Shown: positions 397 to 14,478 of the stretch, piece after piece
How the letters are laid out: every line of letters starts with the position of its first letter
Numbering within the stretch: the first letter of the stretch is position 1
NCBI GenBank assembly: GCA_903901015.1
Contig: CAIUPH010000004.1
Location: forward strand, 100,219 to 164,218
Direction of reading: 5' to 3'
DNA length: 64,000 bases
Source: Candidatus Bathyarchaeota archaeon
GTDB lineage: Archaea; Thermoproteota; Bathyarchaeia; Bathyarchaeales; Bathycorpusculaceae
Notes under the pieces: generated by a model
What the model was told of the DNA's origin: nothing
Seen by the model: the letters and a program-made list of their open reading frames with translations, nothing else
The model's database searches: none
Made by a program: the position numbers and the translations under genes

Positions 397-777
397 TTAT
401 TGTGGTCTGCCTGCTGGGTCAATTTTAGAATTTGCTTGTTTTTCAATCAAGTAGGGTAATGAGGGGTTTTCTTTGTTCAAGGATAATTTTGTGCCTTTCT
501 TGACGGCATACCAGTGTCCTTTTCCTCCTGTTGTGGAGAACATTATGCCTGACATGACATTTCGGCTGATTATGCCAGAGTAAACGGTGTTGTTTTCTTC
601 GTTTGGGGCTCTCTTGAACCGCCAAATTATGGCTCCGTCCACCTCTGTCAATGTGCCCTCGTTTGCTCCTGCCAAGTACCCGAAAGTTCCGTCAAAATTG
701 AAGTAAATTTGTGTGCAAAAGTAATTACCTTTAGGTCCCCAGTCAAAATGCAGAGTCCACCAACCAGTAGAATTCAA
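397..777 (-). CDS. hypothetical 126-aa protein of the left element
   Basis: The frame starts at a TTG preceded by GGTGA six bases upstream and ends at 397. The protein is rich in aromatic residues and glycine in alternating short segments, suggesting a small beta-barrel-like fold, and has no signal peptide or metal motif. I do not recognise a family. It is the last gene on the minus strand before the integrase half and may belong with the zinc-ribbon gene upstream of the window edge. Confidence 0.45.
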   Translation of the reverse strand: MNSTGWWTLHFDWGPKGNYFCTQIYFNFDGTFGYLAGANEGTLTEVDGAIIWRFKRAPNEENNTVYSGIISRNVMSGIMFSTTGGKGHWYAVKKGTKLSLNKENPSLPYLIEKQANSKIDPAGRPQ

Positions 778-1017: not shown

Positions 1018-1034
1018 CCACGTACAAAACGTGG
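1018..1034 (+). promoter_or_regulatory. inverted repeat over the integrase ribosome binding site
   Basis: CCACGT and ACGTGG face each other across five bases, and the right arm runs into the GGAG ribosome binding site (1033-1036) of the integrase. The equivalent position before the second int(N) copy carries a similar repeat (10924-10938) although the flanking DNA differs. It could be an operator or an RNA hairpin that hides the binding site. Confidence 0.55.
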
Positions 1035-1045
1035 AGATTAACAAA

Positions 1046-2098
1046 ATGATAAATCAAGTCAGTTCAACAATCGAGTTAAATCCCGAATTAGCCAATTTAG
1101 CTTATGAAATGGGTTTAAACGCGCCAAAAATCTGTGAAAACGCCCTTAAAACGGCAATAAGCTGCCTTAAAGGCGTAAACACGAATTATTGTTTGGTGGA
1201 CGAGGCGGGATTTGAACCCGCGACCTCCACGATGCCAACAGGGACAGAAACAAGCTCCTTTTCAGAAAAAAAGGCTGAATTAATCATTAAACCTGAAACC
1301 CTTGAAGCCTTTGCGGAATTCATGACCGTAAACATGCGGCTCGAAAAAAGAACTGTTCGAGAAACTAAATCAAATATTCGCAGGTACTTAGATTGTTCCA
1401 ACTATGTTGTGAACTATGAAACCGTCTCGAAATTTCTTAAAGCATATATGGTCAAGTCCTCAAGAACTTACAATGCTCAATTAACCAGCCTGCGAAGATT
1501 CGTTAGGGACTTTCTTCATGCACCGGAGAGCATTTTGGATTTTAAAATGGCACCAGTCGATTTGTTAGGAAAAAACATAACGTTGCCTTCAAAGGAACAA
1601 CTGAAAAAGGGTTTTGAAGCGTTGACTGAGGACGGCGAGAGAGCGTTGTACTTGTTTACATTGTCAACGGGTTTAAGACGCAGCGAAATCATGGGGTTAA
1701 ACAAGGACAAAATTGACTTCAAAATCAGAAGCGTTGTTCCGCTGCATTTTACACGCGTAAAGCGTTCTGGCATTACTTTCTACAATGCAGAAACCGAAGA
1801 GTACCTAAACAGATACTTAGCATCAAAACCAGACGATGCCAAAGTCTTCAGGTTATATCCAAAGAAGTGTAAGCTGATGTGGCGGAAAGCCAGCGAAGCA
1901 GCTGGCGTTAAGATTTCGCCCCAAATTTTACGAATTTGGTTTTCAAACGAATTAGGGGAACAGTTAGTTCCGGATCGCTTCGTTGATATTTTCGAGGGCA
2001 GAGCGCCCAGATCAGTTTTAGCGAAAAATTATACTGCAAAAGGTATTGAAAGATTGAAAGTCATTTATGACAAAGCAAACCTTACTTTATTTTGTTAA
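1046..2098 (+). CDS. int: SSV/pNOB8-type tyrosine integrase, chimeric but intact
   Basis: Tyrosine recombinase of the archaeal type whose gene contains the attachment site. Residues about 51-64 are encoded by the 3' half of tRNA-Ala read in sense, giving the stretch VDEAGFEPATSTMP. The C-terminal catalytic domain shows the first arginine in TGLRRSE, a second arginine in the LRIWF box and a likely nucleophilic tyrosine in KNYTAKG near the C-terminus. The start is ATG 1046, nine bases after GGAG, rather than GTG 1031, which lies in the binding site. Codons before the core come from the left element and codons after it from the right element. Ends 17 bp inside the convergent regulator gene. May be active, since the reading frame is complete. 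Confidence 0.85.
   Translation: MINQVSSTIELNPELANLAYEMGLNAPKICENALKTAISCLKGVNTNYCLVDEAGFEPATSTMPTGTETSSFSEKKAELIIKPETLEAFAEFMTVNMRLEKRTVRETKSNIRRYLDCSNYVVNYETVSKFLKAYMVKSSRTYNAQLTSLRRFVRDFLHAPESILDFKMAPVDLLGKNITLPSKEQLKKGFEALTEDGERALYLFTLSTGLRRSEIMGLNKDKIDFKIRSVVPLHFTRVKRSGITFYNAETEEYLNRYLASKPDDAKVFRLYPKKCKLMWRKASEAAGVKISPQILRIWFSNELGEQLVPDRFVDIFEGRAPRSVLAKNYTAKGIERLKVIYDKANLTLFC
1194..1239. other. left attachment core (tRNA-Ala 3' half copy)
   Basis: 46 bp identical to 11099-11144, that is the tRNA-Ala(GGC) gene from the anticodon arm to the encoded CCA. Identity stops right after the bases of the anticodon loop, the crossover region known for SSV-type integrases. The 5' half of the tRNA is absent here, so this is not a tRNA gene. 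Confidence 0.9.
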
Positions 2099-2741
2099 TC
2101 TTCTCTTTCGACGTCTCATTTGCACTTTCTCGTATCATTTTGACGGCATCATCTATAAACGCTATATTCTTTTTCCATTCTGGAATTTCTGACGGATTAA
2201 TTCTTTGGTCAACTAAATTTTTTGGCACAACATTACCCAGCGAATCTATGTAAAAATCTTCTCTACGGGCAACTTCAATTGGCACTATTTTTTTTAGTAT
2301 TTTGAATATCTGGGTTGTTAAGACAAAGAAAAGTGTTTCTTCTATTAGATAGTAGTCGTTTTTGGTCATTTCCAATTCTTCTTCAGTAATTGCTCTACGG
2401 TTCAAATTCGCCGCATAATTTGAAATTTTTTTAGCCGCTCCTTCAACACTTGAAGCAGTATTCTTAGGAAGTGAGGCAAGTGATGCCTCTATTTCTTTTG
2501 CAAAATTGTCTATCATCCTCTGTAGTCTAACTTTTTCAAGGCGTCGATATGAGACATTCTTTTGGCTAACTTGAACTCTTTCAATTATTCCTTCATCAAC
2601 CATAACTGAAAGGTATTTGCTCACAGTCACCGTACTTAACTTTGATTTTTTGTAAATTATTCCAGCTTTTACTGGCGAGCCATCAGAGGGCATTAAGTCG
2701 AGAATATTGTTTTTTATTGATTCGGACCAACGATTGTTCAT
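2082..2741 (-). CDS. winged-helix transcriptional regulator
   Basis: 219-aa protein. Residues about 8-70 form a winged helix-turn-helix: a first helix NNILDLM, a recognition segment STVTVSKYLSVMVDEGIIERV and a wing. The rest is helical with a hydrophobic segment (FFVLTTQIFKILKKIV) that may be a dimer or ligand interface. It converges on the integrase gene and overlaps its last 17 bp. It may be the element's repressor, by position only. ATG 2741 has no strong ribosome binding site. Confidence 0.7.
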   Translation of the reverse strand: MNNRWSESIKNNILDLMPSDGSPVKAGIIYKKSKLSTVTVSKYLSVMVDEGIIERVQVSQKNVSYRRLEKVRLQRMIDNFAKEIEASLASLPKNTASSVEGAAKKISNYAANLNRRAITEEELEMTKNDYYLIEETLFFVLTTQIFKILKKIVPIEVARREDFYIDSLGNVVPKNLVDQRINPSEIPEWKKNIAFIDDAVKMIRESANETSKEKINKIK

Positions 2742-2842
2742 TGTGATACACTACAATTATTTTATTATACTAAAACAATATTTAAGCATTTTCTTACTTT
2801 GCCTATTGCCGTAAATTCGGCTTCATAAAAAAGGTGTAAACA

Positions 2843-2974
2843 ATGGTTGAATTGCCAGAATTAGGGTGTCCAAAATGCAATCATGTTTGGACTCCAAGAG
2901 TTAAAAACCCGGAAAAATGCCCAAACTGCGGGCATAAACTATCGAAAGAGAACGAGGTGAAAACAAATGAATGA
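2843..2974 (+). CDS. 43-aa zinc-ribbon protein
   Basis: Short frame with two CPxC-type pairs, CPKC at residues 9-12 and CPNC at 26-29, separated by 13 residues, a compact rubredoxin-like zinc ribbon. Its last 8 bases overlap the start of the 291-aa gene in a shifted frame (ATGAATGA), indicating translational coupling. Divergent from the regulator at 2741, so it probably heads a two-gene operon. Specific role unknown. Confidence 0.75.
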   Translation: MVELPELGCPKCNHVWTPRVKNPEKCPNCGHKLSKENEVKTNE

Positions 2975-3842
2975 ACAAAAACTTAAAAAAATAATTGAAG
3001 AAAGCGGAGTCATTGTTTCCTTAACAAGAATGCCTTCGACGTTACATTACCCGCTGGATTCAGCGGAAGCTCAAGAGCGTTATGCAAAAGAAAAAGAAAG
3101 CAACTTTCAGAAAGCAATCCTTGAAGGCGCTTATGACATAGCTACATCGTTAGGTGCATTTGGCGGTTCATCCTCATCATTCCAAGCAACATCACCTGAA
3201 GTTCACAAAAACACACTCATCAACCTCAACTTTGCCCAATTAATATCGAATGCAGGAGAGATTACTCAAGAAATTGAAAAATTGAGAAGCGCTAAACCAC
3301 TACTTTCGAGATTAATTGATGCTAACGCCAAATCTCAATGGGAACTTTGTGGAACAATTACAATTGAAACATCAAACAAGGTAAGCAGTTACACTGAAAA
3401 CGATTGGGAATCGCATGAAACAAAGATAAAAGGCAAAGAAGCAGTTCTCGACATGGCTATGCTCTTTTATGAAAAGATTCTCGCTGTCTATGACGCAGAA
3501 ATAGTTGAAAGAAAAAAATCTCCCAAGATTAAGGAACTCGCCAAGAACCTTACTTCCAACGTAAAACAAGCTGAAAAAATACTTCCAACCATAGTCAAAG
3601 CCAACGAGAGGGCTCAAAAAGCTCTAGCGCAAGGGCAGAAACCGGATCTTAAAACGTGCAATGTCTACATTGATGCAACCACTGAATTATCGGAACTAAG
3701 CAGCCAATATTCTGTTCTAAAAAAAGAAATCGATTTTCTAACAAATGAAAGAATCCCAAACCTTCCAGACTTTCCGATGTTGAGCCAGAATGACATTTCA
3801 GCAGATCACCCGATTAAGCAAGAATGGAGGCGTTTTGCCTAA
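2967..3842 (+). CDS. element-encoded hypothetical 291-aa protein
   Basis: Hydrophilic, mostly helical protein with heptad-like stretches around residues 95-120 and 175-265, and a low-complexity GGSSSS patch near residue 65. No transmembrane segment and no catalytic motif that I recognise. It is coupled to the preceding zinc-ribbon gene by an 8-bp overlap and is followed by the structured segment and terminator at 3861-3991. I cannot assign a function; a structural or replication-accessory role would be a guess. Confidence 0.65.
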   Translation: MNEQKLKKIIEESGVIVSLTRMPSTLHYPLDSAEAQERYAKEKESNFQKAILEGAYDIATSLGAFGGSSSSFQATSPEVHKNTLINLNFAQLISNAGEITQEIEKLRSAKPLLSRLIDANAKSQWELCGTITIETSNKVSSYTENDWESHETKIKGKEAVLDMAMLFYEKILAVYDAEIVERKKSPKIKELAKNLTSNVKQAEKILPTIVKANERAQKALAQGQKPDLKTCNVYIDATTELSELSSQYSVLKKEIDFLTNERIPNLPDFPMLSQNDISADHPIKQEWRRFA

Positions 3843-3860
3843 AACGTTGGAAGCCACATT

Positions 3861-3991
3861 CCCGTAAAAGGCTCGGGCAGCTTACACCGCAAGCGTTTAA
3901 TCGCGGAATTTTCCGCACAGTAGGGGGTTTTCAGTTCTTTGCCCCCTTCTTCACCTCTGGCGCTTAGAGGCTCCTGCTTAGGAGGTTTTTT
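3861..3991 (+). ncRNA. GC-rich multi-hairpin segment, candidate structured RNA
   Basis: A GC-rich island in AT-rich DNA with consecutive hairpins: CCCG/CGGG (3861-3877), GCGGAA/TTCCGC (3903-3916), GGGGG/CCCCC (3923-3946), CCTCT/AGAGG (3954-3970) and CTCCT/AGGAG followed by a T run (3971-3991). The last one is a plausible terminator for the 2843-3842 operon. The row of hairpins could instead be a small RNA or a replication-origin structure. Confidence 0.45.
3971..3991 (+). terminator. hairpin plus T-run terminator
   Basis: Stem CTCCT/AGGAG with a four-base loop, followed directly by GTTTTTT. It lies 130 bp after the stop of the 291-aa gene and closes the structured segment. Confidence 0.6.
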
Positions 3992-4059
3992 ATTTGTATT
4001 TCGCTGCCGGGCTTTGCGGAAAGGATGTGGCTTTCAAACTATCATTGGAGCATGAAAAC

Positions 4060-4167
4060 ATGAAACAAATTCAATGCAAGGCAACACGCAGTTGCGATTT
4101 AAAAAACAACGATCACACACGAAACATACGTTTACGTAATACAAAGGTAGGTGATAAAATTGATTAA
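4060..4167 (+). CDS. 35-aa leader-like small protein
   Basis: ATG 4060 stands nine bases after a GGAG, the spacing used by most genes in this window, which supports real translation. The peptide is short and basic and contains two cysteines; no family recognised. Its last 8 bases overlap the TTG start of the next gene, so it may be a coupled first cistron. The palindrome at 4127-4138 lies inside it. Confidence 0.5.
   Translation: MKQIQCKATRSCDLKNNDHTRNIRLRNTKVGDKID
4127..4138. promoter_or_regulatory. TACGT/ACGTA palindrome, candidate RHH operator
   Basis: TACGT and ACGTA separated by TT, just before the ribbon-helix-helix gene at 4160. A related sequence (ATACGTAAACG) recurs inside the inverted repeat at 5528-5547 at the end of the second RHH gene, which suggests a shared binding site. 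Confidence 0.4.
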
Positions 4168-4792
4168 AGCTAAACCCATGAGAGTAATTTCAATTAGAGT
4201 TTCAGAAGAAGATGCTGAATTCCTAAAGTCATTGCCTAATGCATCAGAATTGATAAGAAAAGCAATTGATGAAGAAAAAAGAAAACAAAGAATGCTTTCA
4301 GAAAAAGGATTACCTTTAGAAATAGTTAGCGAGATAGCACAAGCATACACCAAACACAAAATTGAATGGCTTCAAGACGATAATTTAGATCAAAAAGCTC
4401 ACAGTGAAACACTTTCAAGCCCATTGCTTGACATAGCGCAACTTACGCTGGATTGCCCGAACCCTTACAGTTCAAACAAAGAATTAGCATGCCTTCCAGA
4501 GTCAATGAGTCTTGATGAATTCTGCGAAGAACTTCAAAGTAAAGAGGCAAAGGCATTCATTCAAAGGATAAAAGACAAAATAATTCAACATCATAATGAT
4601 AAAACAATCAATATCTCTTTGGATGCTGATGAACTTGAAACTGTTCGCAAGATTTTCGATGAAGCTAAAATGCTGCTTCAAGAAGGCTACCGTAAAACAT
4701 TCCACAAACTTCCACCTGACGACTGGCATCTAACGATCATTGACGGCAGAGCATTTCATGACCACAATAGACTACGCTATAAGCTTCCTTAG
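4160..4792 (+). CDS. ribbon-helix-helix DNA-binding protein, 210 aa
   Basis: The N-terminal 45 residues match a CopG/Arc-type ribbon-helix-helix: a beta strand MRVISIRVSEED followed by two helices (AEFLKSLP, ASELIRKAIDEEKRKQ). The remaining 160 residues are a helical acidic domain with no recognised motif. TTG 4160 is preferred because GGTGA lies five bases before it; GTG 4151 sits in the binding site and ATG 4178 is a further option. A T-rich stretch at 4810-4835 may end transcription. Likely an element regulator or plasmid copy/partition protein. Confidence 0.6.
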   Translation: MIKAKPMRVISIRVSEEDAEFLKSLPNASELIRKAIDEEKRKQRMLSEKGLPLEIVSEIAQAYTKHKIEWLQDDNLDQKAHSETLSSPLLDIAQLTLDCPNPYSSNKELACLPESMSLDEFCEELQSKEAKAFIQRIKDKIIQHHNDKTINISLDADELETVRKIFDEAKMLLQEGYRKTFHKLPPDDWHLTIIDGRAFHDHNRLRYKLP

Positions 4793-4880
4793 GAAAATAC
4801 GAAGTATGCATGTTGCAACTCTTTTTTTCTTTTTGTTTATAATAAAACCTTGGCTTACTGTCATAGTTAATTTTTAATGT

Positions 4881-5117
4881 TTACCGTTCTGAATTCACTT
4901 CTAAGTCTTTTAAGTTCATCTTAATTTTTCGGTTTATTGCGATTGAAAACAATGCAACCATTGCTATGATTGGGACAGTGGCGTTAAAGGGGGTTGATTG
5001 AGTGAAGACACAGATTATTCCCGCAAAACCCATCGCGCAAGCCATAAAAACACAGAGGTACAGATACAACTCTGCTGCCGGTTTTGGTTTTATCGACTTT
5101 CTTTTGCGTTTAGTTAT
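4881..5117 (-). CDS. small two-helix membrane protein with apparent ATA start
   Basis: The frame has no ATG upstream of the first membrane helix, but an ATA codon at 5117 is preceded by GGAGGAT with a ten-base spacer. From there the 78-aa product begins with a basic segment (MTKRKRKS), then two hydrophobic helices (about residues 17-38 and 46-64) and a charged tail. A TTG at 5069 would remove the basic segment. A ten-codon ATG frame ends in the TAA that overlaps the ATA, so reinitiation or frameshifting is also possible. Same layout as the gene at 59873. Confidence 0.5.
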   Translation of the reverse strand: MTKRKRKSIKPKPAAELYLYLCVFMACAMGFAGIICVFTQSTPFNATVPIIAMVALFSIAINRKIKMNLKDLEVNSER

Positions 5118-5328
5118 TTTCGCCTATCCTCCTCAAATGCCATTTATTATTTTGCTGATCTATATTGTATATTAAAGCTCAATACTCAATACAGTAACTT
5201 ACGATTTAATAAATATTACGAATTCATACTCTTGCATCATTTTTCTCGTAAAAAAATAGTTGTTGTTGATTTGAAATTCATAAACCTATTTAATACTAAA
5301 AGAAGAACCAATACTTCAGGAAATTTAA

Positions 5329-5538
5329 ATGAAAAAAAAAGTTAGAACAACCATCGCTATCGACAAAGAACTGATGGATTGGATTCTTGAAAAGATCACA
5401 GAAAAACGTTTTGCCAGCGTGTCCCACGCGATGGAATATTCGGTTAAACGAGTAATTGATCGAGAAAGGGAAGACATTCATTTTGGAGTAATTGATAAAG
5501 AGAAACCATTCGTCTCCAGTAAAAAATGTAATACGTAA
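5329..5538 (+). CDS. ribbon-helix-helix regulator, 69 aa
   Basis: Short protein with the pattern of a CopG-like ribbon-helix-helix: strand VRTTIAIDKELMDWI, then helices around KRFASVSHAMEYSVKRVIDRE. ATG 5329 follows GGAAAT. Such proteins bind palindromic operators as dimers, and an inverted repeat lies directly over its stop codon (5528-5547), with a related palindrome before the other RHH gene. Likely an element-encoded repressor. Confidence 0.7.
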   Translation: MKKKVRTTIAIDKELMDWILEKITEKRFASVSHAMEYSVKRVIDREREDIHFGVIDKEKPFVSSKKCNT

Positions 5539-5547
5539 ACGCATTAC
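5528..5547. promoter_or_regulatory. GTAAT/ATTAC inverted repeat
   Basis: GTAAT and ATTAC separated by ten bases, overlapping the stop codon of the RHH gene and containing TACGTAAACG, which resembles the palindrome at 4127. Possible operator or weak terminator. Confidence 0.35.
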
Positions 5548-5631
5548 AACCCCTTTTTCCCTTATGTTTCAATCGCGACTTCGCGAGGTCTATCTCAAAG
5601 CTCTTTAAGCAGAACTTATGAACGAATAATC

Positions 5632-6039
5632 ATGCTAACACTAACTCAAATAAAAGCACTCACAGATATCAGCTATGTTCCCTTTGGTATTATTCTATTA
5701 TTAGCTCCAATTGATGTGTTCATAAAAGTAGCGATTTTCTGTTTCTCGATGCCCGCAGCATTTTTGGGTTTGTTAAATCCTGAGAAAGATGAAAAAACGA
5801 AAATGGTATATGATGTTATGAACTTTTTTGTTCAACCACTTTTTAGATTTCAGTTTGCTATGTCAGGGACAATTATTGCTTTATTGTCGCCTGAAACATC
5901 ATCTGTTTTAGCTTTGTCGGTTGCCTTACCTTTTATAGTTATTCTCACATACGTTTCGATTGGCTGGTTCAAAGCGGTATTATCGGCTTCAGGTAAAAAA
6001 GATCAAAAGCGACCTTTTATGCGAAATCCATTTTCTTGA
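5632..6039 (+). CDS. element-encoded membrane protein, 135 aa
   Basis: About three to four transmembrane helices: residues 13-30, 31-47, 72-95 and 97-118, with a charged loop (NPEKDEKTKM) and a basic C-terminal tail (KKDQKRPF). No transport or enzyme signature. Small multi-span membrane proteins of this kind are common in archaeal viruses and plasmids, so the context fits, but no function can be given. Confidence 0.6.
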   Translation: MLTLTQIKALTDISYVPFGIILLLAPIDVFIKVAIFCFSMPAAFLGLLNPEKDEKTKMVYDVMNFFVQPLFRFQFAMSGTIIALLSPETSSVLALSVALPFIVILTYVSIGWFKAVLSASGKKDQKRPFMRNPFS

Positions 6040-6151
6040 CCTAATTTAATCCGTTTCAAAAGTTGTTGTACTTTTCGATGCTTCTTCGTCTGCCTCTGCC
6101 TCAAGGTTTAAGACGCCTTAAGACGATATGATTCGAGAAAACAAGAAGTAG

Positions 6152-6283
6152 ATGGATAAAGTCCATCCTTTAGAGAACGTTCGCCGCATACGTATCGTGG
6201 CAGTAAACGGTGAATATATCGCAAAACGCTCTTCCTTTCGAACGCTAAAACGTGAAGTAAATACCAAAATAAGGCTAAAATGA
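6152..6283 (+). CDS. possible 43-aa basic protein
   Basis: The only open frame of note in the otherwise gene-free stretch 6040-6514. The predicted peptide is strongly basic in its C-terminal half. No clear ribosome binding site and no recognised domain, so this may be chance. The rest of 6040-6514 shows only AT-rich sequence. Confidence 0.3.
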   Translation: MDKVHPLENVRRIRIVAVNGEYIAKRSSFRTLKREVNTKIRLK

Positions 6284-6514
6284 TAGTATTTTTATGTTTA
6301 CCAGAATAATTTTACTCGATTTTTAACGAAAAAACGTATTAAAAAGTCTGAAAATTTAGGTAATTATACTTTTTTATGATTGGATGAAAATACAATTCGA
6401 TAACGTACTTTGCTCATCGCAAAACATTGGAGAAATAGTGTTCAATTGAGTTGACAAGTTTAAAATTTTAACAACCTTCAAATTTATTCAACTACGAAAT
6501 TGCAACCGAACAGT

Positions 6515-7480
6515 TTATTCGATCTCTCGGACACCTTCTTTCGTAATCGCCCATCGCTTATTTTGTATTTGATCGATCAACTCGGGTAATAACGGGAATT
6601 CGGTCGTCTCTCCTTCAAGGGCGTTGTGAACAGCGAAAGCACTTAGTTGAAAAACCTTGCATGCCAAGTTCTCTGACTTGAAATCTATACCCTTGTCATA
6701 AGATATATCGAACAAAAGACTGTCCTTGGAAAAGAACTCTATTTTATTTTCTCCGTTGTCAACAATCTTGATATAATTACCCAAAGCTGTCTTCAAAATT
6801 TCGAAAAATCTTTCTTCAATATATATCCTATCTTTGCTAATCCCAAAATGACTGCCTTTACTTTCAATAATAAATGCTCGGCTAAATGCGGTATTCATTT
6901 GAAATTCTGCAGGATAATAGACAAATTCTTGTTTTAGAAAATCCTTAGTCTTTTCCGTAATGCACTCAGGATTATAATGTAGAAACGATTGACCAGTTAT
7001 TTTAACAGGGGCATATTGAATTCGCTCTCCTCCAGCGAAAACCGATCTAAAACCAAAACCTGCAGATCTCGCCTGTCCCACGAGAAAATAATGGACGCAT
7101 AAATTATCCCTCAAATAATACATCCATAATTTTGGGTCATACATGCTATCCGCACCTAAAACATCTATTGTTTTCGCTATTCCATCATTCAGAGCTAAGA
7201 CATGCTCAGACGGATTAGGTGGAAACTGGACAATTTTAGGTGAACCCGCAGAAATGTAAACACTGCTTAACAAATTAATCAAACCTGTTTCTTGAAGTTT
7301 TTCCAGGTTCCAGTTGCAATCAGACAATGCCTTACCAAAACCCGTTATATCATACCAAAAGCAAAGTGAGTCAACAGATTTGAGGTTTTTTTTCTGAGCA
7401 AATATTCTAAACTTCTGCATCTCCCATTGCTCTTCCGTAAGATGAGGCTCCTTCATTTCCTCGTTTTTATTTTCAGACAT
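6515..7480 (-). CDS. element-encoded hypothetical 321-aa protein
   Basis: Soluble protein without membrane spans, starting at ATG 7480 behind GGAGAG. The N-terminal 20 residues are charged and helical; the remainder is a mixed alpha/beta sequence rich in aromatic residues. I see no nuclease, ATPase or helix-turn-helix motif. It stands alone on the minus strand, divergent from the regulator operon at 7713; the shared 230-bp upstream region would hold both promoters. Function unknown. Confidence 0.6.
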   Translation of the reverse strand: MSENKNEEMKEPHLTEEQWEMQKFRIFAQKKNLKSVDSLCFWYDITGFGKALSDCNWNLEKLQETGLINLLSSVYISAGSPKIVQFPPNPSEHVLALNDGIAKTIDVLGADSMYDPKLWMYYLRDNLCVHYFLVGQARSAGFGFRSVFAGGERIQYAPVKITGQSFLHYNPECITEKTKDFLKQEFVYYPAEFQMNTAFSRAFIIESKGSHFGISKDRIYIEERFFEILKTALGNYIKIVDNGENKIEFFSKDSLLFDISYDKGIDFKSENLACKVFQLSAFAVHNALEGETTEFPLLPELIDQIQNKRWAITKEGVREIE

Positions 7481-7712
7481 TCCCTTAAAACTCTCCTTTT
7501 TAAGACGATGATTGCCTAATTAGGGTCATTTGCATATTTACGCAAATCGTTTAAAAGCTTTAGTGGGTTGCCAACACTGAAAACTTGTGCAAACAAACGC
7601 CGAACTATTCATGATTTTTTATGGCATATACATGATAACTTAACAAAAATGAGTAAACTTTTTAAGCAAGCACTATATTGGTAAAATACCATAAAGAGTG
7701 GGGATAAAGAGT

Positions 7713-8000
7713 ATGGACAAAGACCCTGAGACTAGAAAACTTTTAGAAAAGATTCTTTCAGTCTTGAAACTAACAAACAGCAAGGTTATCGAAGAACAAA
7801 AGCAATCAATTTTGAAAAATGAAATCAAGAAAAAGATATACGACCTTTGTGATGGAAAACACACAGTAAATGATATAGCTGTTGAGATAAAAACCACTCA
7901 ACCTAACGTTTCTTATCATTTGTCATCGCTTCTCGAATCTGGGCTGGTCTTATATGACGATGTAGGCGGTAAGAAATACTACTTTAAATCCCTGGAGTAA
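7713..8000 (+). CDS. HTH operon gene 1: ArsR-like winged-helix protein
   Basis: 95 aa. A 40-residue N-terminal helix is followed by a winged helix-turn-helix: KKKIYDLCDGKHTVNDIA, TTQPNVSYHLSSLLESGLV and a wing ending in KKYYFK. ATG 7713 follows GGGGAT by seven bases; the GTG at 7698 lies upstream of that binding site. First gene of a nine-gene operon. Its core closely parallels gene 7 (LCDxKHTxxDI), so the two look like duplicates. Confidence 0.75.
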   Translation: MDKDPETRKLLEKILSVLKLTNSKVIEEQKQSILKNEIKKKIYDLCDGKHTVNDIAVEIKTTQPNVSYHLSSLLESGLVLYDDVGGKKYYFKSLE

Positions 8001-8005
8001 TATCC

Positions 8006-8392
8006 ATGAGCGAAAAAACTGGCGTCCAAAGTCTTTCTGAGAAGATAGATGAACTTATTTTCTGGACAAAATTTTCAGCTATGACAACATTCGTACCTCT
8101 CTTAACTAACGCATTGCGTACTGAAATTGACAAGTTAATTTATGAGCTTTCGGATGGAAAGAGAAGCTCAAGGGAAATAGCGCAAATAGTTTGCTCGACA
8201 GGCAGAAAAACTACTCATGTTACAGTAGGAAACATGTGGGAAAAATGGACACTTTTGAATTTAGTTATTCCTGCAACAAGAAAAGGTCGGGTTAAGAAAG
8301 TTGTATCCTTGGAATCAATCGGTATCTCTGTGCCCAAGTATCCAAGCAATGCCCCTAATGAAGTACCTGATGGTGAGATAACTCATGAGTGA
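8006..8392 (+). CDS. HTH operon gene 2: winged-helix protein
   Basis: 128 aa. After an N-terminal segment with WTKFSAMTTF comes LIYELSDGKRSSREIAQIV, a helix-turn-helix, then a wing region and a VSLESIGI segment. The same order (WTKF.GM, YELSDGRSSLEIA, SLKEVGVEIP) occurs in gene 3, showing recent duplication. ATG 8006 follows GGAG by eight bases and the stop overlaps the start of gene 3. Confidence 0.72.
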   Translation: MSEKTGVQSLSEKIDELIFWTKFSAMTTFVPLLTNALRTEIDKLIYELSDGKRSSREIAQIVCSTGRKTTHVTVGNMWEKWTLLNLVIPATRKGRVKKVVSLESIGISVPKYPSNAPNEVPDGEITHE

Positions 8393-8762
8393 CGATAAAA
8401 ACATCAAGGAAATTTTAAAAGAAATTTTGAAATGGACTAAGTTTGAGGGTATGCAAAAAGTAAAGCAAGTTTTGGTAGATAATCTTGATTCGGACGTTAA
8501 GAAACTTACATATGAACTTAGCGACGGGCGTTCAAGTCTAGAAATAGCCAAAGCAGTCGGTATTGCAGAGCACACCGTAAGAAATTACTGGAAAGATTGG
8601 TCAATCATTGGAATTGTTGAAATTCATCCAGAATTAAAAAAGCGTTATCGCCAAATTTTTTCACTGAAAGAAGTGGGCGTTGAAATCCCAAAATCTAAGG
8701 CACTGTCTGGAATAATAATACAAGACCACGAGGCAACCGAAGGTATAGATGATGAACAATAA
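8385..8762 (+). CDS. HTH operon gene 3: winged-helix paralog of gene 2
   Basis: 125 aa. It shares with gene 2 the WTKFEGM segment, the YELSDGRSSLEIAKAVGI helix-turn-helix with recognition helix EHTVRNYWKDW, and the SLKEVGVEIP tail. The start overlaps the gene 2 stop by 8 bp and has GGTGAG upstream. The SDG-R-S-EIA motif resembles archaeal single-domain regulators. No sensor domain is present. Confidence 0.72.
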   Translation: MSDDKNIKEILKEILKWTKFEGMQKVKQVLVDNLDSDVKKLTYELSDGRSSLEIAKAVGIAEHTVRNYWKDWSIIGIVEIHPELKKRYRQIFSLKEVGVEIPKSKALSGIIIQDHEATEGIDDEQ

Positions 8763-9054
8763 AACAAATGATGATAAGATAATCGAACTACTTGAAGAAT
8801 TGAATGCTAATATTGAAGTTCTATCGAAAATAACCGCTTTGACCCTCAGGAAAGACACTCTGTTCAAAGACAAAGATACTAAGCAAGGACAAATTGAAGT
8901 TTTGGAGGCTTTGAAACTTCCTGATAATGTGATTGCTCTTGTTATTGGAAGTACCGTAGATTCTATTCAGTCATCGAGAAGCCAAAAGAAAGCTAAAGTT
9001 AAAAACAATCAGAAAAACGAAACAGAGAAGAAGGAAATGCAGGTGAAACAATGA
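8749..9054 (+). CDS. HTH operon gene 4: small HTH-like protein with basic tail
   Basis: 101 aa. An N-terminal heptad-like helix (IIELLEELNANIEVLSKI) is followed by LKLPDNVIALVIGSTVDSIQS, which fits a minimal helix-turn-helix, and a highly charged lysine-rich tail. Two ATG codons in tandem (8749, 8752). Overlaps gene 3 by 14 bp and gene 5 by 4 bp. The HTH is less clear than in gene 5, but the layout is the same. Confidence 0.62.
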   Translation: MMNNKTNDDKIIELLEELNANIEVLSKITALTLRKDTLFKDKDTKQGQIEVLEALKLPDNVIALVIGSTVDSIQSSRSQKKAKVKNNQKNETEKKEMQVKQ

Positions 9055-9302
9055 ACGACAAGGCATCTAACGAAAAACTTGACAAAATAATCAAAAGATT
9101 GGATATTATAACTGTGGTTTTGCTTAAACAGGCTGGGTTTAAAAGAAAAGAAATCGCAGATGCGTTAGGCGTTAGCGAAAAGACAATTCAACGTTTAGTA
9201 CCTGTTTCCAAAATTAATGGATCAAAAGTGAAGAAAATAGAAATTGAAGAGAAAGATGAAATTGAGAAAAATGTTGATGGCGAGGGGGATAAGAAGGCTT
9301 GA
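9051..9302 (+). CDS. HTH operon gene 5: minimal HTH protein
   Basis: 83 aa. A first helix (LDKIIKRLDIITVVLLKQAG) leads to a textbook helix-turn-helix FKRKEIADALGVSEKTIQRL, then an acidic/lysine-rich tail. ATG 9051 overlaps the preceding TGA and follows AGGTGA. The domain resembles sigma-region-4/Trp-repressor-like HTH units but without other domains. Confidence 0.72.
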   Translation: MNDKASNEKLDKIIKRLDIITVVLLKQAGFKRKEIADALGVSEKTIQRLVPVSKINGSKVKKIEIEEKDEIEKNVDGEGDKKA

Positions 9303-9490
9303 GTGAAGAAAAATCTAAAGCGAAAAAAGATGAACTGAAGGAACTTCAATCGATTAGAAATTTGCTAATTTTACAGTTGCTTAAGAGTGGAGCAACATCT
9401 GAAGAAATTGACAAGGCAACTGGTATGGGGGCAAGTAACATTCGAGGGATGTTTCCACGAATTAAGAAGAATGTAACCGCTTTAGAGTAA
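9299..9490 (+). CDS. HTH operon gene 6: minimal HTH protein
   Basis: 63 aa from a TTG start that overlaps the previous TGA (TTGA). Layout as in gene 5: helix IRNLLILQLLKSGA, then TSEEIDKATGMGASNIRGMFP as the HTH. It is almost nothing but the HTH unit with a charged N-terminus, so it probably acts as a dimer or with its neighbours. Confidence 0.68.
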   Translation: MSEEKSKAKKDELKELQSIRNLLILQLLKSGATSEEIDKATGMGASNIRGMFPRIKKNVTALE

Positions 9491-9510
9491 CATTAAGAGG
9501 CGAGAGGAAA

Positions 9511-9798
9511 ATGATGAGTAAAGAGCAATTTGAAAAGATTTCAAAGACTTTGGATAATATTGACAGTAAGTTGACAACTCTTATTGTGCTTCAAAAAAGA
9601 GCAAGCCCTAAACCCAAAATAGGAAACGAAGAAGCGAAAATCTTGAAGCTTTGCGATAAGAAACACACTATCGATGACATTGTAAAAGAAACAGGTAAAA
9701 CAGAAGATAACGTTAAGGTTACACTAAGTAACTTGAGAAGTAAAGGGCTCATCAGATCAGTCGAATTAAAAGACAAACTCGTATATGAGGAGATATAG
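9511..9798 (+). CDS. HTH operon gene 7: winged-helix paralog of gene 1
   Basis: 95 aa. N-terminal heptad helix (LDNIDSKLTTLIVLQK), then ILKLCDKKHTIDDIVKETG, recognition segment TEDNVKVTLSNLRSKGLI and a wing. The LCDxKHTxDDI stretch and spacing match gene 1. Start at ATG 9511 or 9514 after GAGAGGA. The 20-bp gap to gene 6 is the largest in the operon. Confidence 0.72.
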   Translation: MMSKEQFEKISKTLDNIDSKLTTLIVLQKRASPKPKIGNEEAKILKLCDKKHTIDDIVKETGKTEDNVKVTLSNLRSKGLIRSVELKDKLVYEEI

Positions 9799-9810
9799 AA
9801 GGGGATAAAA

Positions 9811-10248
9811 TTGCCGAAAAACAATAGAGACAAAGAAATTGATCAAATAAAGGAAGATATTAGAGATATACGGAACGACATTAACGAAATAAAAGGCAAT
9901 ACTCACAACATAAGCAGAATACTTACTATTGGACAACGAGAGACCATTAAGCAAGACCTAATCAGCATGCTATCAAATTCTCCCAAGAGACTTCAAGTAT
10001 TGCTTCTAACAAAAGACTACATAGACAGGGAAGAATTGTGTATGAAATTAAAGACTGATCCACGAAATCTAAACAGTTTCTTGGATCCTCTTCAAGAAAA
10101 AGGGTATCTTTCTGATAAGAAAGTTGAAGGAAAGAAACAATACAGAAGAACTGACCTGATCAATCAAGTTGGTTTTGAAAAGATTCCAGAAATCGCCATT
10201 TTAATTAGAGAGTTAGAAACAAGAGCAGGTAACGCGGGTGAATTATAG
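9811..10248 (+). CDS. HTH operon gene 8: coiled-coil winged-helix protein
   Basis: 145 aa from TTG 9811 behind AAGGGGAT. Residues 5-35 form a heptad coiled coil (IDQIKEDIRDIRNDINEIK), residues 45-110 a winged-helix-like domain with REELCMKLKTDPRNLNSFLDPLQEKGYL, then a helical tail. Longest of the soluble members. Overlaps the membrane-protein gene by 11 bp. Confidence 0.68.
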   Translation: MPKNNRDKEIDQIKEDIRDIRNDINEIKGNTHNISRILTIGQRETIKQDLISMLSNSPKRLQVLLLTKDYIDREELCMKLKTDPRNLNSFLDPLQEKGYLSDKKVEGKKQYRRTDLINQVGFEKIPEIAILIRELETRAGNAGEL

Positions 10249-10864
10249 CACTATTCAGTCAATAATTCTTCCAGCATATATCATCGTTTATTTTATAACA
10301 CTTGTTGCTCTTTTTAAAAAATATAAGGCGTCTAAAGAGGAAAGAAAAAGGTCTATAGCTCCGCTTTTCTTAATCAATTTAATCCTTTTTGTTGCGCTTG
10401 TGGCAGGAATTACTTTTTTGTACAATTTGTCACCAAACATTACACAGTTTGTAATAATTTATGGTCTTCTTACGATAGGCGTTTTTACAGTTACCTTGGA
10501 AGTGCCAGGTTTTATAATGTTAAGCGGTTTCGATGAAAAATCGGTAACAGTGTTGCAAGAAATAAAAGCTGATCTAATTAAAAGTCGGTTTAGATTTACT
10601 GAAGGCATTGAAGGTATACACAAATCTTTGGCTAAGAACAAACAGATCTTGACAGAACTGCATGCTTATGATCAAATAGAATATTACGAAACTTCAAGTA
10701 CTGAGATGAATCAGTCAAATACGTCAGTCATTGATTTACTGGTCATGTCCTTAAATCAGTGGATTAAGGAATGCGAGGAGAAAAGCAAGCATCCATTCCC
10801 GAAAATGGTTGATATCTTTTCACTTGCAGGTTTGAGCTTCTTAATTGCCCAACTTCTAAAGTAA
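10238..10864 (+). CDS. HTH operon gene 9: membrane protein with cytoplasmic tail
   Basis: 208 aa from GTG 10238. Three hydrophobic helices at about residues 8-28, 42-62 and 69-92 (the last two nearly adjacent), then a hydrophilic 100-residue segment with a predicted amphipathic helix (SVTVLQEIKADLIKSRFRF) and a final hydrophobic stretch (VDIFSLAGLSFLIAQLL). Translationally coupled to the eight regulator genes. It may anchor one or more of them at the membrane or serve as a sensor; this is inference from the operon only. Confidence 0.65.
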   Translation: MNYSTIQSIILPAYIIVYFITLVALFKKYKASKEERKRSIAPLFLINLILFVALVAGITFLYNLSPNITQFVIIYGLLTIGVFTVTLEVPGFIMLSGFDEKSVTVLQEIKADLIKSRFRFTEGIEGIHKSLAKNKQILTELHAYDQIEYYETSSTEMNQSNTSVIDLLVMSLNQWIKECEEKSKHPFPKMVDIFSLAGLSFLIAQLLK

Positions 10865-10878
10865 ATAGAATTTTCTAT
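10865..10878 (+). terminator. palindrome after the HTH operon
   Basis: ATAGAA and TTCTAT separated by TT, directly after the last stop codon of the operon and followed by a short T run (GATTTTTA). Weak terminator candidate. Confidence 0.35.
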
Positions 10879-10923
10879 AGATTTTTAGCCGTTATTCCTA
10901 TAAAGTCCTAACCGGACAACAGA

Positions 10924-10938
10924 CACGTTACGAACGTG
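10924..10938 (+). promoter_or_regulatory. inverted repeat over the int(N) ribosome binding site
   Basis: CACGTT and AACGTG around a three-base spacer. The right arm reaches the GGAG at 10938-10941, which stands nine bases before ATG 10951. Counterpart of the repeat at 1018. Confidence 0.55.
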
Positions 10939-11098
10939 GAGATCAGAAAAATGTTAACACAAGTCAGTTCAACAATCGAGTTAAACCCTGAATTAGCGAA
11001 TTTAGCCTATGAAATGGGTTTAAATCCGTCTAAAATATGTGAAAATGCCCTTAAATCGGCAATAAGGTGCCTTCAAGGCGTAAACATGAATAAGTGTT

Positions 11099-11144
11099 TG
11101 GTGGACGAGGCGGGATTTGAACCCGCGACCTCCACGATGCCAAC
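11099..11144. other. right attachment core inside tRNA-Ala
   Basis: 46 bp identical to 1194-1239. It covers the tRNA from its anticodon arm to the CCA end. The tRNA remains complete on this side. Confidence 0.9.
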
Positions 11145-11176
11145 GTGGCGATCATGCCAGACTGATCTACTCGCCC
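11099..11176 (-). tRNA. tRNA-Ala (anticodon GGC), CCA encoded
   Basis: Folds into a full cloverleaf. Seven-pair acceptor with the G3-U70 wobble that identifies alanine tRNAs, D stem GATC/GATC, anticodon stem CCACG/CGTGG with loop TTGGCAT (anticodon GGC), T arm GCGGG/CCCGC with TTCAAAT loop, discriminator A and an encoded CCA. No intron. It is the integration target of the elements to its left. Confidence 0.95.
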
Positions 11177-11378
11177 AAATTTTACCTGGCTTCTGAAAGT
11201 TACCCTGCCTCGTTTAATAAGCATTTCTTATGCTGTTCACCTATACCTAACAACATGAAGCTTAAGGCGTTGTTTTTTTGGAAATTTTTTGGCTTGAATT
11301 CCATTTCTGAAGGTTTATGCGGCGTAGCTTTTTATACGGCAAACGCAAATAGAAAAGCCAAGCAAGGTGCAAAAAAAC

Positions 11379-12431
11379 ATGCCTAAAGTCAAAGTTGCAT
11401 TAATCGGCGTTGGAAACTGCGCCTCATCGTTCATTCAGGGCATCCAGTTCTACGGAAAACTCGAGAAGCCCCAAGACTGTTTTGGATTACGCCACCCCGT
11501 TCTGGCGGGACTGAGCCCCAAAGATATCCAAGTGGTCGCGGCCTTCGATGTGGATGACCGCAAGGTTGGCAAAGACCTCTCCCAAGCAATCTTCGCTGTA
11601 CCCAATAACGCGCCAAAAATTTGCGACGTTGCATCGATGGGCGTTAAAGTTACCAAGGGACCGTTGCTTGATGGTGTTGGAGACCAAACTAAAAAAATCG
11701 TTCAAGCCAGCAAAGCACCTGACGCAGACGCAGTTAAAGTCCTCAAGGCATCAGGCGCAGAAGTCATGGTTAACCTGCTTCCATCTGGCGCTGCAAAAGC
11801 CACCCAGTGGTATGCAGAGCAAGCCCTCGCCGCGGGATGCGCTTTTGTTAACGCTACCCCCAACTTCATCGCAAGCGACCCATCATGGGCAAAGAAGTTT
11901 GAAGCCGCAAAGCTTCCCCTTGTCGGCGACGACTTAGTCGACCAAGTCGGCTCAACCGCCCTTCACAAAACCCTACTCAAACTGCTCTCAGACAACGGCG
12001 TGCGAATCGACGAAACCTACCAACTTGACGTTGGCGGAGGAACCGAATCCGTCGACACAATGGATCGCACACGCGATGCCAAACGCCAAATAAAAACCGA
12101 ATCCGTAGCAGCGGCAATCCCATACAAAGCCGAAATCGTCGCGGGCTCAACCGACTACGTGGATTTCCTCCAGAACAAACGCGACAGCTACTTCTTCATA
12201 AGCGGCGCATACTTCTGCAATGCACCCATGAAAATCGACCTTAAATTCCAAACCGTTGACGCGCCAAACGCAGGGTCAGTGCTCTTCGACGTTGTCCGCG
12301 CAGTAAAACTTGCCTTAACCAACAAAGTTAAAGGCGCAGTGGAGCCAATTTGCGCTTACGGGTTTAAGCGTCCGCCCAAGATGGTGTCGCTTGAAGAAGC
12401 AGACGCACTGTTCAAAAAATTCTTAGCTTAA
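11379..12431 (+). CDS. ino1: myo-inositol-1-phosphate synthase
   Basis: Converts glucose 6-phosphate to L-myo-inositol 1-phosphate with internal NAD+ redox, the precursor of archaeal inositol phospholipids. The N-terminal Rossmann motif GVGNCASSFIQG is present, followed by the family core DDLVDQVGSTALHK and the TDYVDFLQNKRD stretch. 350 aa, the usual archaeal length. ATG 11379 is preferred over GTG 11367, which forms part of the AGGTG binding site. It converges with the phosphoglucose/phosphomannose isomerase gene, overlapping by 9 bp; both act on hexose phosphates. Confidence 0.92.
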   Translation: MPKVKVALIGVGNCASSFIQGIQFYGKLEKPQDCFGLRHPVLAGLSPKDIQVVAAFDVDDRKVGKDLSQAIFAVPNNAPKICDVASMGVKVTKGPLLDGVGDQTKKIVQASKAPDADAVKVLKASGAEVMVNLLPSGAAKATQWYAEQALAAGCAFVNATPNFIASDPSWAKKFEAAKLPLVGDDLVDQVGSTALHKTLLKLLSDNGVRIDETYQLDVGGGTESVDTMDRTRDAKRQIKTESVAAAIPYKAEIVAGSTDYVDFLQNKRDSYFFISGAYFCNAPMKIDLKFQTVDAPNAGSVLFDVVRAVKLALTNKVKGAVEPICAYGFKRPPKMVSLEEADALFKKFLA

Positions 12432-13532
12432 GCTAGATTTTTCTAGCTCGCTAATTATTTTCTCTTTCACCCCATTCTGTTGCAAGGTATCTTTCAAGAT
12501 GTTTATGGTTTTTACCGGTGTCGGGTCTACTCCGCGCACAACGGCTAAGTAGACGCTTATGAAGTCGCCCACGAGAATGGTTGACAGCATCTTTGCCAAG
12601 GTGCTTTTGCCCTGCGCCTCCAAATCGAACATTACTAAACCCACTTTCTCCATGATTTGTTTGGTGACTTCAATTCGGCTCTCGATTTCCGCGGGTTCAT
12701 CGACGTCGCGGATAAATATCACTGAGTACCATCTGCATTGTTCGCCCCTGCCTTCCCACCCGACGATTTCGTTGTGGTCAAGCTCTGGGAAGTATTCCCA
12801 TTTGGCGGCGGATTTGCTGTTCTCGTTAAACTGCTGCTTAAACCGCTGGGCAACGCTGCGGTAAAAGCCAAACCCGTAAACCACAGGGGTTGATTCACCG
12901 ATGTTTATGGCGACGTTTTTTGCGAAGTTTTCGTTGGTTGGTTTCTGGGGTGAGTTTTCTTCGCTGATTTTTTCGAGAAAGCTGAACGCTTCGTTTAGTT
13001 CTTGTGTTACGCCTTTGGCTAAGCCTGCTTTCTCAATGTACACCAGAAGCGGCACAAGCATGTAGGGCAATGCAGCTCGCGGAGGCATTCCAGCAGGTAC
13101 CTGCAGGTGAGGCACTTTGTATTTTTTGGCGTATTTAATGAGTGCGCCGCCGCTGCTTATGCAGTAAATCATGCATTTACGTTTGAGCGCATCTAGAAAA
13201 CTGCTGAGGGTTTCTTCGGTGTCGCCTGAGTAGCTTGTGATGAAAACCAAAGTTTTTTTGTTGGCGTATGCTGGCAGCTTGTATTCTCGGCTGACTTCGA
13301 TGGGTATGGAAAGTTGGGTTTTTGCCCAGTCCTTGAGCAGGTCGCCACCGATTGCGGAGCCGCCTAAACCAGCTACAACGATGTTGCTGGGCTTGGGGTA
13401 ATCAACGATGATTCTATCGGCGTATTTTGCTGCTTCACGGTAATGTTTAGCTGCGTTAACAGAAAAATCAATCATACCGCTCTTATCCACTGTGCTTATT
13501 CTTTCAACGTTATCTAAAAGTGCTGTTGGCAT
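12423..13532 (-). CDS. bifunctional phosphoglucose/phosphomannose isomerase
   Basis: Archaeal SIS-domain isomerase interconverting fructose, glucose and mannose 6-phosphates. The first SIS domain has GLGGSAIGGDLLKDW and TSYSGDTEETLSSF, the sugar-phosphate-binding signature, and later residues include ELDHNEIVGWEG with the catalytic histidine region. About 369 aa. ATG 13532 follows GGAGGACT closely, so the upstream 13 in-frame codons are not used. It feeds glucose 6-phosphate to the neighbouring inositol-phosphate synthase. Confidence 0.9.
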   Translation of the reverse strand: MPTALLDNVERISTVDKSGMIDFSVNAAKHYREAAKYADRIIVDYPKPSNIVVAGLGGSAIGGDLLKDWAKTQLSIPIEVSREYKLPAYANKKTLVFITSYSGDTEETLSSFLDALKRKCMIYCISSGGALIKYAKKYKVPHLQVPAGMPPRAALPYMLVPLLVYIEKAGLAKGVTQELNEAFSFLEKISEENSPQKPTNENFAKNVAINIGESTPVVYGFGFYRSVAQRFKQQFNENSKSAAKWEYFPELDHNEIVGWEGRGEQCRWYSVIFIRDVDEPAEIESRIEVTKQIMEKVGLVMFDLEAQGKSTLAKMLSTILVGDFISVYLAVVRGVDPTPVKTINILKDTLQQNGVKEKIISELEKSSLS

Positions 13533-13623
13533 ATTGGAGTCCTCCAAATAACACGCAGTTTTATATCTCATCCCTGCCTTTTAAGCACACCGCAGACGAG
13601 TAAGCGTAAAGGACACGAGTAAC

Positions 13624-14478
13624 ATGAATAGACATAAACTTTCAATCGCGATTCCAGCATCCGCAATCTCCGACACCCCGCATCCACGGGAGAAAACAGC
13701 TAAAATCGGACTGATTGGGCGGGCAGCCGCGATTTTTCGAGTAGACGAAATCATAGTTTACCCTGACAACCCCAAAATGGATCAGCGCAGGGACATAGAT
13801 TACATGGCTCTTCTTCTCAACTACTTGGAAACACCTCAGTACCTGCGGAAAACGCTCTTCAAACTCGACCCTGATTTAGAGTTTGCGGGAATCCTGCCTC
13901 CGCTGCGCACGCCGCATCATCCGACAAGCGGCAAAACCAAGCATCTTCAGGTAGGCGAGTACCGTGAAGGCGTGGTGATGTCTGAAGTTAAAGATGGGTT
14001 GATGGTGGATATTGGGGTTCAGCAGCCAGCATTGCTTAGGCAGAAACAGTTTGCTGTGGGCAAACGCTTAACCCTGCAGGTAGTTAACGTGGGCAGGCAG
14101 ATTGACGTGCAGGCTGCAAGCCGCGAAGATGTTCCGCAGTATTGGGGCTACAGGGTAAAGGTGGAGGAACACTCGTTTGGGCAGCTGCTAAAAAACGGCA
14201 GTTTTGATTTGAAGATTGCCACCGCAAGGATAGGCAACGATTTCATGGATGTTGCCTCAAAGATTGGCGAGAAATGGCGAGGTAGCCAGCGGGTTTTGGT
14301 GGCTTTCGGTGCTCCCTCGCGTGGGCTGCATGAAATCGTTGAGGATGAAGGCTTGAAGCTCGATGGATTGGTGGATTTCGTAGTTAATACGGTTCCTAAT
14401 CAGGGCACGGTGACGGTTCGCATGGAAGAGGCGCTTTTGGCTTCCTTAGCCATTTTCAACGTCCATTTCAATTGCTAA
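13624..14478 (+). CDS. SPOUT-family RNA methyltransferase (COG2106/MTH1 type)
   Basis: 284 aa. The N-terminal IAIPASAIS start, the KIGLIGRAAAIFRVDEIIVY segment and the C-terminal VNTVPNQGTVTVRMEEALLASLA motif are typical of the MTH1/C9orf114 SPOUT family, in which a small OB-like insert (about residues 105-170) interrupts the knotted methyltransferase fold. VLVAFGAPSRGL is the SAM-binding loop. Human relatives methylate uridine N3 in rRNA; the archaeal substrate is not established. Divergent from the isomerase gene, sharing a 90-bp promoter region. Confidence 0.8.
   Translation: MNRHKLSIAIPASAISDTPHPREKTAKIGLIGRAAAIFRVDEIIVYPDNPKMDQRRDIDYMALLLNYLETPQYLRKTLFKLDPDLEFAGILPPLRTPHHPTSGKTKHLQVGEYREGVVMSEVKDGLMVDIGVQQPALLRQKQFAVGKRLTLQVVNVGRQIDVQAASREDVPQYWGYRVKVEEHSFGQLLKNGSFDLKIATARIGNDFMDVASKIGEKWRGSQRVLVAFGAPSRGLHEIVEDEGLKLDGLVDFVVNTVPNQGTVTVRMEEALLASLAIFNVHFNC

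Follow-up and report, generated by a model that had tools for sequence, protein, structure and literature searches.

A hybrid full-length integrase gene where an SSV-type element meets a probable relic int(N) at a tRNA-Ala gene in Bathyarchaeia

SSV-type (class I, "suicidal") archaeal integrases, such as those of SSV1, SSV2, pTN3, pT26-2, and TKV4 (PMC8371274), carry the attachment (att) site inside the integrase gene (int), and when the element inserts into a tRNA gene, int is cut into two pieces, a short int(N) and a long catalytic int(C), and the tRNA gene is restored at the int(N) end. These integrases destroy their own gene on integration, yet the elements that carry them pervade archaeal populations, a recognised puzzle to which the known answers are a superinfecting element or homologous recombination (PMC8371274). 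We re-analysed one such locus in a 64,000-nucleotide stretch of DNA from Candidatus Bathyarchaeota archaeon (the window; bases 100219-164218 of the 164.5-kb contig CAIUPH010000004.1, from the draft assembly GCA_903901015.1 of 2.05 Mb in 117 contigs), where the original prediction had placed two SSV-type elements in tandem at one tRNA-Ala gene and an intact integrase rebuilt at their junction. The rebuilt integrase at the tRNA-Ala locus was confirmed on re-analysis. The locus shares its layout with the SSV-type integrases, but the int(C) of the integrated 9.9-kb element, which we call element B, is fused in frame to another, apparently pre-existing int(N), which gives a full gene while the element is integrated. 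This left int(N), int(N)_A, is best read as a probable relic of an earlier integration by a related element A, and we put the probability of the explanation as a whole, in which integration of B beside the relic int(N)_A would have rebuilt an integrase, at about 0.75.

Split integrases, int(N) relics, repeated use of one site with tandem integration, and chimeric integrases are all already known (PMC8371274, PMC3718332, PMC6563490). In Sulfolobus islandicus, int(N) relics are found at the tRNA genes Ala-GGC, Pro-GGG, and Glu-TTC (PMC3718332), and these isolated int(N) pieces beside tRNA genes resemble the one described here as scars of past integration. However, those pieces are described as scars, whereas here a new full-length integrase gene has the relic as its 5′ part. 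One integration site is likewise used repeatedly in the tandem integrations known from archaea (Redder et al. 2009; Krupovic et al. 2010, 2019; cited in PMC8371274 and PMC6563490), but the older element at the present locus is gone except for its int(N) and possibly about 1.4 kb. Chimeric suicidal integrases formed via homologous recombination were reported for TKV2/TKV3 (Badel et al. 2020, summarised in PMC8371274), and in both cases new N/C combinations of related integrases would explain how suicidal integrases persist and change. According to that summary, the TKV2/TKV3 chimeras arise through an inversion that involves two integrated copies, and they remain dependent on a superinfecting integrase, whereas here site-specific integration itself would build the intact gene in cis and in one step. 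We found no description of a relic int(N) restoring a full integrase at a junction in the literature searched, with priority uncertain and Redder et al. 2009 and Badel et al. 2020 known via review.

The locus is defined by a 221-nt direct repeat (1019-1239 versus 10924-11144; 88% identity, spacing 9905), within which the exact identity is confined to 50 bp, the left att core (1190-1239) and the right att core (11095-11144). Of these 50 bp, 46 are the 3′ part of tRNA-Ala(GGC), the target gene and the sole tRNA gene in the window (11099-11176, minus strand), which is intact on the attR side and inside which the exact repeat run terminates. Past the core, the right copy continues into the remainder of the tRNA gene and the left copy into the C half of the integrase, and in silico removal of the 9.9-kb element leaves tRNA-Ala intact. 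Chance would not give a repeat of 221 nt in a single register on one tRNA core that encodes homologous protein in both copies. An INO1-like inositol-3-phosphate synthase gene (11367-12431, plus strand) follows as the conserved right flank of the target tRNA in congeners. In relatives with the canonical split, int(C) starts at a tRNA T-arm that is translated, and the matching core follows several kb to the right, often with a tRNA gene called there; a right-end int(N) is present in the loci L119, L127, L134, and others, and also in L226, L250, and L252. Given this split form in relatives, the 9.9-kb segment (1240-11094, period 9905 bp) is, as far as its sequence can tell, an integrated SSV-type element whose own integrase is in two pieces, int(N)_B (10951) and int(C)_B (1240). 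The predicted SSV-type anatomy was borne out: the int open reading frame (ORF) contains the core, and the element has int(N)_B at one end and int(C)_B at the other.

The hybrid integrase ORF (1046-2098, plus strand, 350 codons) begins at ATG 1046, with an alternative upstream GTG at 1031, and is open through 2098. It consists of int(N)_A (1046-1239, plus strand), with the start codon, helices like those of the ribbon-helix-helix (RHH) protein CcdA, and a tRNA-derived linker, joined in open frame to int(C)_B (1240-2098, plus strand), which holds the core-binding and catalytic domains of a tyrosine recombinase. The element's own int(N)_B (10951-11196, plus strand) has 81 open codons and runs out inside and past the tRNA gene. 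When the native integrase was rejoined in silico (N 10951-11144 plus C 1240-2098), it was also open over 350 codons and differed from the hybrid at 9 residues, all within the N half. The intact gene is chimeric, as had been predicted, and its N half does differ from the element's own, at the 88% repeat identity given above and at these 9 residues. Between int(N)_A and int(N)_B, the nonsynonymous divergence (dN) was 0.09 and the synonymous divergence (dS) 0.34, rough values from only 51 codons, which points to constrained coding divergence, and the upstream DNA of the two is unrelated beyond ~27 bp (above about base 1019). In int(N)_A, a residue shared by almost every int(N) examined is changed (S27P), which fits an onset of decay. 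A whole-genome search with the full integrase returned only these two copies as close matches, plus one distant integrase on another contig.

Palindromes lie just ahead of both int(N) start codons and overlap the GGAG motif. One, CCACGTACAAAACGTGG (1018-1034), belongs with the GGAG ribosome-binding-like motif to the segment 5′ of the hybrid integrase (1019-1045, plus strand), and the other, CACGTTACGAACGTG (10924-10938, plus strand), is its positional counterpart 5′ of int(N)_B. Could the RHH-like N domain use them as an operator, or do they form a translation hairpin? Because the palindromes differ in several relatives and are absent from others, and because a 6-bp palindrome arm appears in 10% of shuffled sequences, we do not claim a conserved operator. 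A sigma-70 promoter scan gave no match, a model that is not suited to archaea.

Both Pfam (Phage_integrase, 1.1e-7; Phage_integr_3, archaeal phage integrase, 6.7e-7) and PHROGs assigned the C half of the integrase to the tyrosine recombinases, and the catalytic residues R211, K239, R296, and Y329 (numbered from ATG 1046) are retained and invariant among relatives, in keeping with the R...K...R...Y catalytic domain of the SSV-type enzymes. Compared with SSV1 Int, however, the recombinase is nearer to archaeal Xer/XerA by sequence and by fold. Archaeal Xer/XerA proteins came first among the PDB sequence matches, with the SSV1 integrase chains 3uxu/3vcf/4dks at about 6e-7, and the best PDB folds in a search with an AlphaFold2 model of the hybrid integrase (mean predicted local distance difference test score [pLDDT] 78, predicted template modelling score [pTM] 0.55) were also archaeal Xer/XerA-like. 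The model has two N-terminal helices at 13-21 and 26-43 and a disordered stretch at 43-75, which is the tRNA-derived peptide, followed by the core-binding and catalytic domains. Since both of these domains fall in int(C) in the model, int(C) holds the entire recombinase, and int(N) supplies an upstream region, a start codon, and a small domain. This N domain, a further difference from the SSV-type integrases, resembles CcdA (PF07362, ribbon-helix-helix antitoxin family), a likeness that is weak here (0.0014 for int(N)_B and 0.27 for int(N)_A, both under the curated cut-off) and significant in relatives (1e-7 to 1e-5). SSV-type elements leave no intact int in the integrated state, whereas the hybrid ORF at 1046-2098 is intact; this is because of the neighbouring relic int(N), not because of another mode of integration. 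The locus also differs from the pNOB8-type (class II) arrangement with att outside int, as here the ORF encloses the core and int(N)_B and int(C)_B are apart. The named relatives of the integrase are mostly from Bathyarchaeia metagenome-assembled genomes, and no relatives were found among the IMG/VR viral contigs.

The contig extends 100 kb leftward of the window. A whole-genome search with bases 1-2100 found the core on the contig only twice, with no third att copy, and no second close int(C) was found in the genome; 70 kb of left flank held no further core copy in a search allowing up to 20% mismatches. Instead of the three att copies and two gene sets of tandem elements, the locus has two cores and no second int(C). 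The genes on the left side are chromosomal (VapC, NapH-like, and Obg/YchF-like GTPase). In a congener (G007), a VapC gene is adjacent to tRNA-Ala and INO1, within about 300 bp, and this VapC gene is 77% identical to the VapC/PIN gene just outside the window (L010:8489-8887). The G007 arrangement is the empty site, and from it the two flanks of the insert are seen to belong together. The distance from the VapC stop to int(N)_A in the window genome (G000) is 2.36 kb and, therefore, at most 2.36 kb of the older insert is left. The right 1.35 kb of this segment, which runs from the ancestral left flank (VapC/PIN) to the relic int(N) and whose right part is 1-1018 of the window, has a GC content of ~0.35, like the element (0.364) and unlike the chromosome (0.44-0.48), and may therefore be left-over DNA of the older element. 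It includes a 126-aa ORF (397-777, minus strand) with relatives in 2 of 90 other family genomes (85% and 59%); a zinc-ribbon ORF, also on the left, has distant relatives in many congeners. No degenerate left core was seen beside the VapC gene, either by eye or in a search with up to 20% mismatches, and Rfam gave no match on the left flank. At the edge of the low-GC remnant lies GGAGGGTTCAAATCCCACCCCTTACG (L010:9844-9869, about window -375 to -350), which is tRNA T-arm-like, is oriented opposite to tRNA-Ala, and is the only copy in the genome when up to 3 mismatches are allowed. Bases 888-956, upstream of int(N)_A, recur on the contigs C77 (84%) and C14 (78%) of this genome.

We ran the int(N) profile over 163 genomes of the order and found it in only six ORFs of >300 aa, most other matches being in short ORFs. 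The survey covered 62 distinct int(C) starts, 58 of which had 300 nt or more of upstream sequence, and in 7 of the 62 int(N) lay directly upstream of int(C), six times in frame and once out of frame (L124); a random frame would put one in three in frame, and these numbers are small, with shared ancestry among some. Three of these seven also had a second int(N) rightward on the same contig, namely, the window, G044:C179, and G150:C25. At G044:C179, a major facilitator superfamily (MFS) gene is immediately left, and the second int(N) overlaps tRNA-Val about 7.0 kb away. At G150:C25, the second int(N) is 18.1 kb away, the left genes are of chromosomal type, and the right tRNA was not recognised by ARAGORN. 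The rebuilt gene is open in the window and in G150. The two int(N) copies of G150:C25 (L223, L224) are identical or nearly so in the 3′ part and diverged in the 5′ part, a pattern pointing to local recombination between int(N) copies. In the out-of-frame case (L124, Bathyarchaeota JdFR-04, 9843-10094 and 13519-13821), the relic int(N) left of int(C) reads the shared tRNA core in another frame, so that no integrase is rebuilt, and the right int(N) is in the int(C) frame. The intact genes of L141 and G033:C253, which have short contigs or element-like flanks, were not counted as independent junctions, and a long ORF at G044:C158 was set aside as a further case after it gave no match to the int(C) profile.

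For 30 int(N) loci, 11-19 kb of sequence on the left was available; 4 of them showed int(C) (one partial) and 8 an upstream att copy of at least 35 bp, and about 20 had neither. Near some of these loci were genes that we assigned to the chromosome by reading their sequences (Lon, 2-oxoacid dehydrogenase E2, threonine synthase, a radical S-adenosylmethionine [SAM] enzyme, and an M50-type peptidase). Bare int(N)-tRNA relics look common in the order, and some of the int(N) loci without int(C) could be the ends of elements longer than 19 kb. Two other loci may be mentioned here. L233 (G023:C2:141900-161899; 1713-3351 and 18905-19157) looks like an array of repeated integrations, as several copies of one att core, 46 bp matching at 100% and the rest at 88%, precede its int(N)-tRNA-Pro end by about 15-17 kb on the left. 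G039:C32:2486-6803 (L098, L111, L112) has, on one strand and within 4.5 kb, one int(C) together with two or more extra int(C) tails, and we read this cluster as a graveyard of integrations.

We propose the following history, which, together with the anatomy, is in our judgment very probably correct. Element A would have used the tRNA-Ala gene and decayed by deletion to int(N)_A and its core, and the related element B, inserting in the 3′ part of tRNA-Ala(GGC), would have recombined with the relic core, parting int(N)_B on the right from int(C)_B on the left and fusing the latter in frame to int(N)_A, not to bare flank. Two integration events at one tRNA-Ala gene, as in the original prediction, are the simplest history; either order of A and B would lead to the same final arrangement. 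The hybrid gene would thus combine the upstream region, start codon, and CcdA/RHH-like domain of A with the core-binding and catalytic domains of B. The relic's upstream region is predicted to drive transcription, giving an active integrase in cis to both cores. This enzyme would release B as a circle bearing the native N_B-C_B gene, while int(N)_A-core-tRNA would stay behind in the chromosome as a landing site reusable by the next visitor. Element B would in this way be spared the self-destruction of its integrase. Multimerisation is driven by the N part in SSV1 and SSV2, whose Int(C) shows only weak activity in vitro by itself, and for two elements integrated in S. solfataricus P2, int(N) is the only half that is transcribed (PMC8371274); by analogy, rebuilding would restore both the expression and the assembly of the integrase. 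That the hybrid enzyme is really active is a tentative proposal, to which we would give slightly less than an even chance.

The original prediction went further, with a second complete element on the left and a hybrid recombinase able to mobilise either one. The left int(N) does imply an earlier integration, and tandem integration at one locus is known in archaea (PMC8371274; PMC6563490). However, neither a third core on the contig or in the 70 kb to the left nor another close int(C) in the genome was found, and the left flank is chromosomal and syntenic with the empty site, with no more than 2.36 kb left over, which makes a live tandem very unlikely. Under the refuting condition named with the original prediction, the sequence leftward of base 1, with no att copy and no second int(C) found, refutes the second, mobilisable element and leaves the rebuilt integrase standing; as only the 9.9-kb element has two att cores, only that element could be excised. 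Hardly more credible is that int(N)_A is an old internal duplicate of the element's own right end, with no other element involved. The two int(N) belong to one family and the nearly identical 3′ parts of the G150 pair indicate that local exchange occurs, but the upstream sequences are unrelated beyond about 27 bp, dS is 0.34, and duplication alone would not set a copy exactly in register at the left core. An assembly or strain chimera, in which reads from a bare int(N)_A-tRNA were joined at the 50-bp core with N_B-C_B reads from circles or cells, is improbable. The assembly is a draft in 117 contigs, and a 50-bp exact repeat is prone to short k-mer misjoins. On the other hand, int(N)_A differs from int(N)_B by 12% and so is no collapsed copy of the right end, both flanks are as expected from the G007 empty site, and the independent assemblies of G044 and G150 have the same architecture.

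A more serious alternative, if not the one we favor, is that the hybrid gene is an inert by-product, in which int(N)_A is decaying, the fusion is unexpressed or inactive, and the element is as trapped as other split ones. The S27P change would agree with this, and Int(C) alone has some activity in vitro, so that a rebuilt gene may be unneeded (PMC8371274). The hybrid ORF is nevertheless open and in frame and has kept its catalytic residues and a start region with the GGAG motif. Several observations weigh against integration of B at a relic int(N) as a working rescue of the integrase. The rebuilt gene is broken in G044 (C-terminal frameshift) and in G083 (N-terminal frameshift) and is therefore not always kept, which also favors the inert by-product. 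No int-bearing element could be linked to the left ORFs, and the copies of the zinc-ribbon and 126-aa ORFs that were checked showed no integrase halves nearby. Our only traces of the parent element A are int(N)_A and the low-GC DNA, and the junction itself comes from one metagenome-type assembly.

The cargo of element B consists mostly of small winged-helix/helix-turn-helix (HTH) proteins and proteins without known function. No capsid, packaging, or replication genes were recognised among ten element proteins with Pfam and PHROGs, and these ten, a scan that some small ORFs fell outside, included no spindle-virus structural genes of a Fusellovirus or provirus. Seven small proteins encoded on one strand at 7698-10248, mostly coiled or winged-helix/HTH, look like diverged relatives of one another. 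A 321-aa protein (6515-7480) had no Pfam or PHROG match and no relative in 91 family genomes.

A relic int(N) that rebuilds an integrase through the integration reaction would be a simple one-step alternative to the known answers to the puzzle of suicidal integrases. Three genomes of a single order showed its signature, with int(N)-core-int(C) at one end and int(N)-core-tRNA at the other, and the rebuilt integrase may let an otherwise trapped element get out again. We also raise, as an unlikely generalisation, that the int(N) relics beside tRNA genes in Bathyarchaeia could be landing pads, at which related elements arriving in the right frame would gain a full integrase and their integration would become reversible. 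If true, such landing pads would be a cis-acting answer to the persistence of suicidal integrases and might select for keeping the relic int(N).

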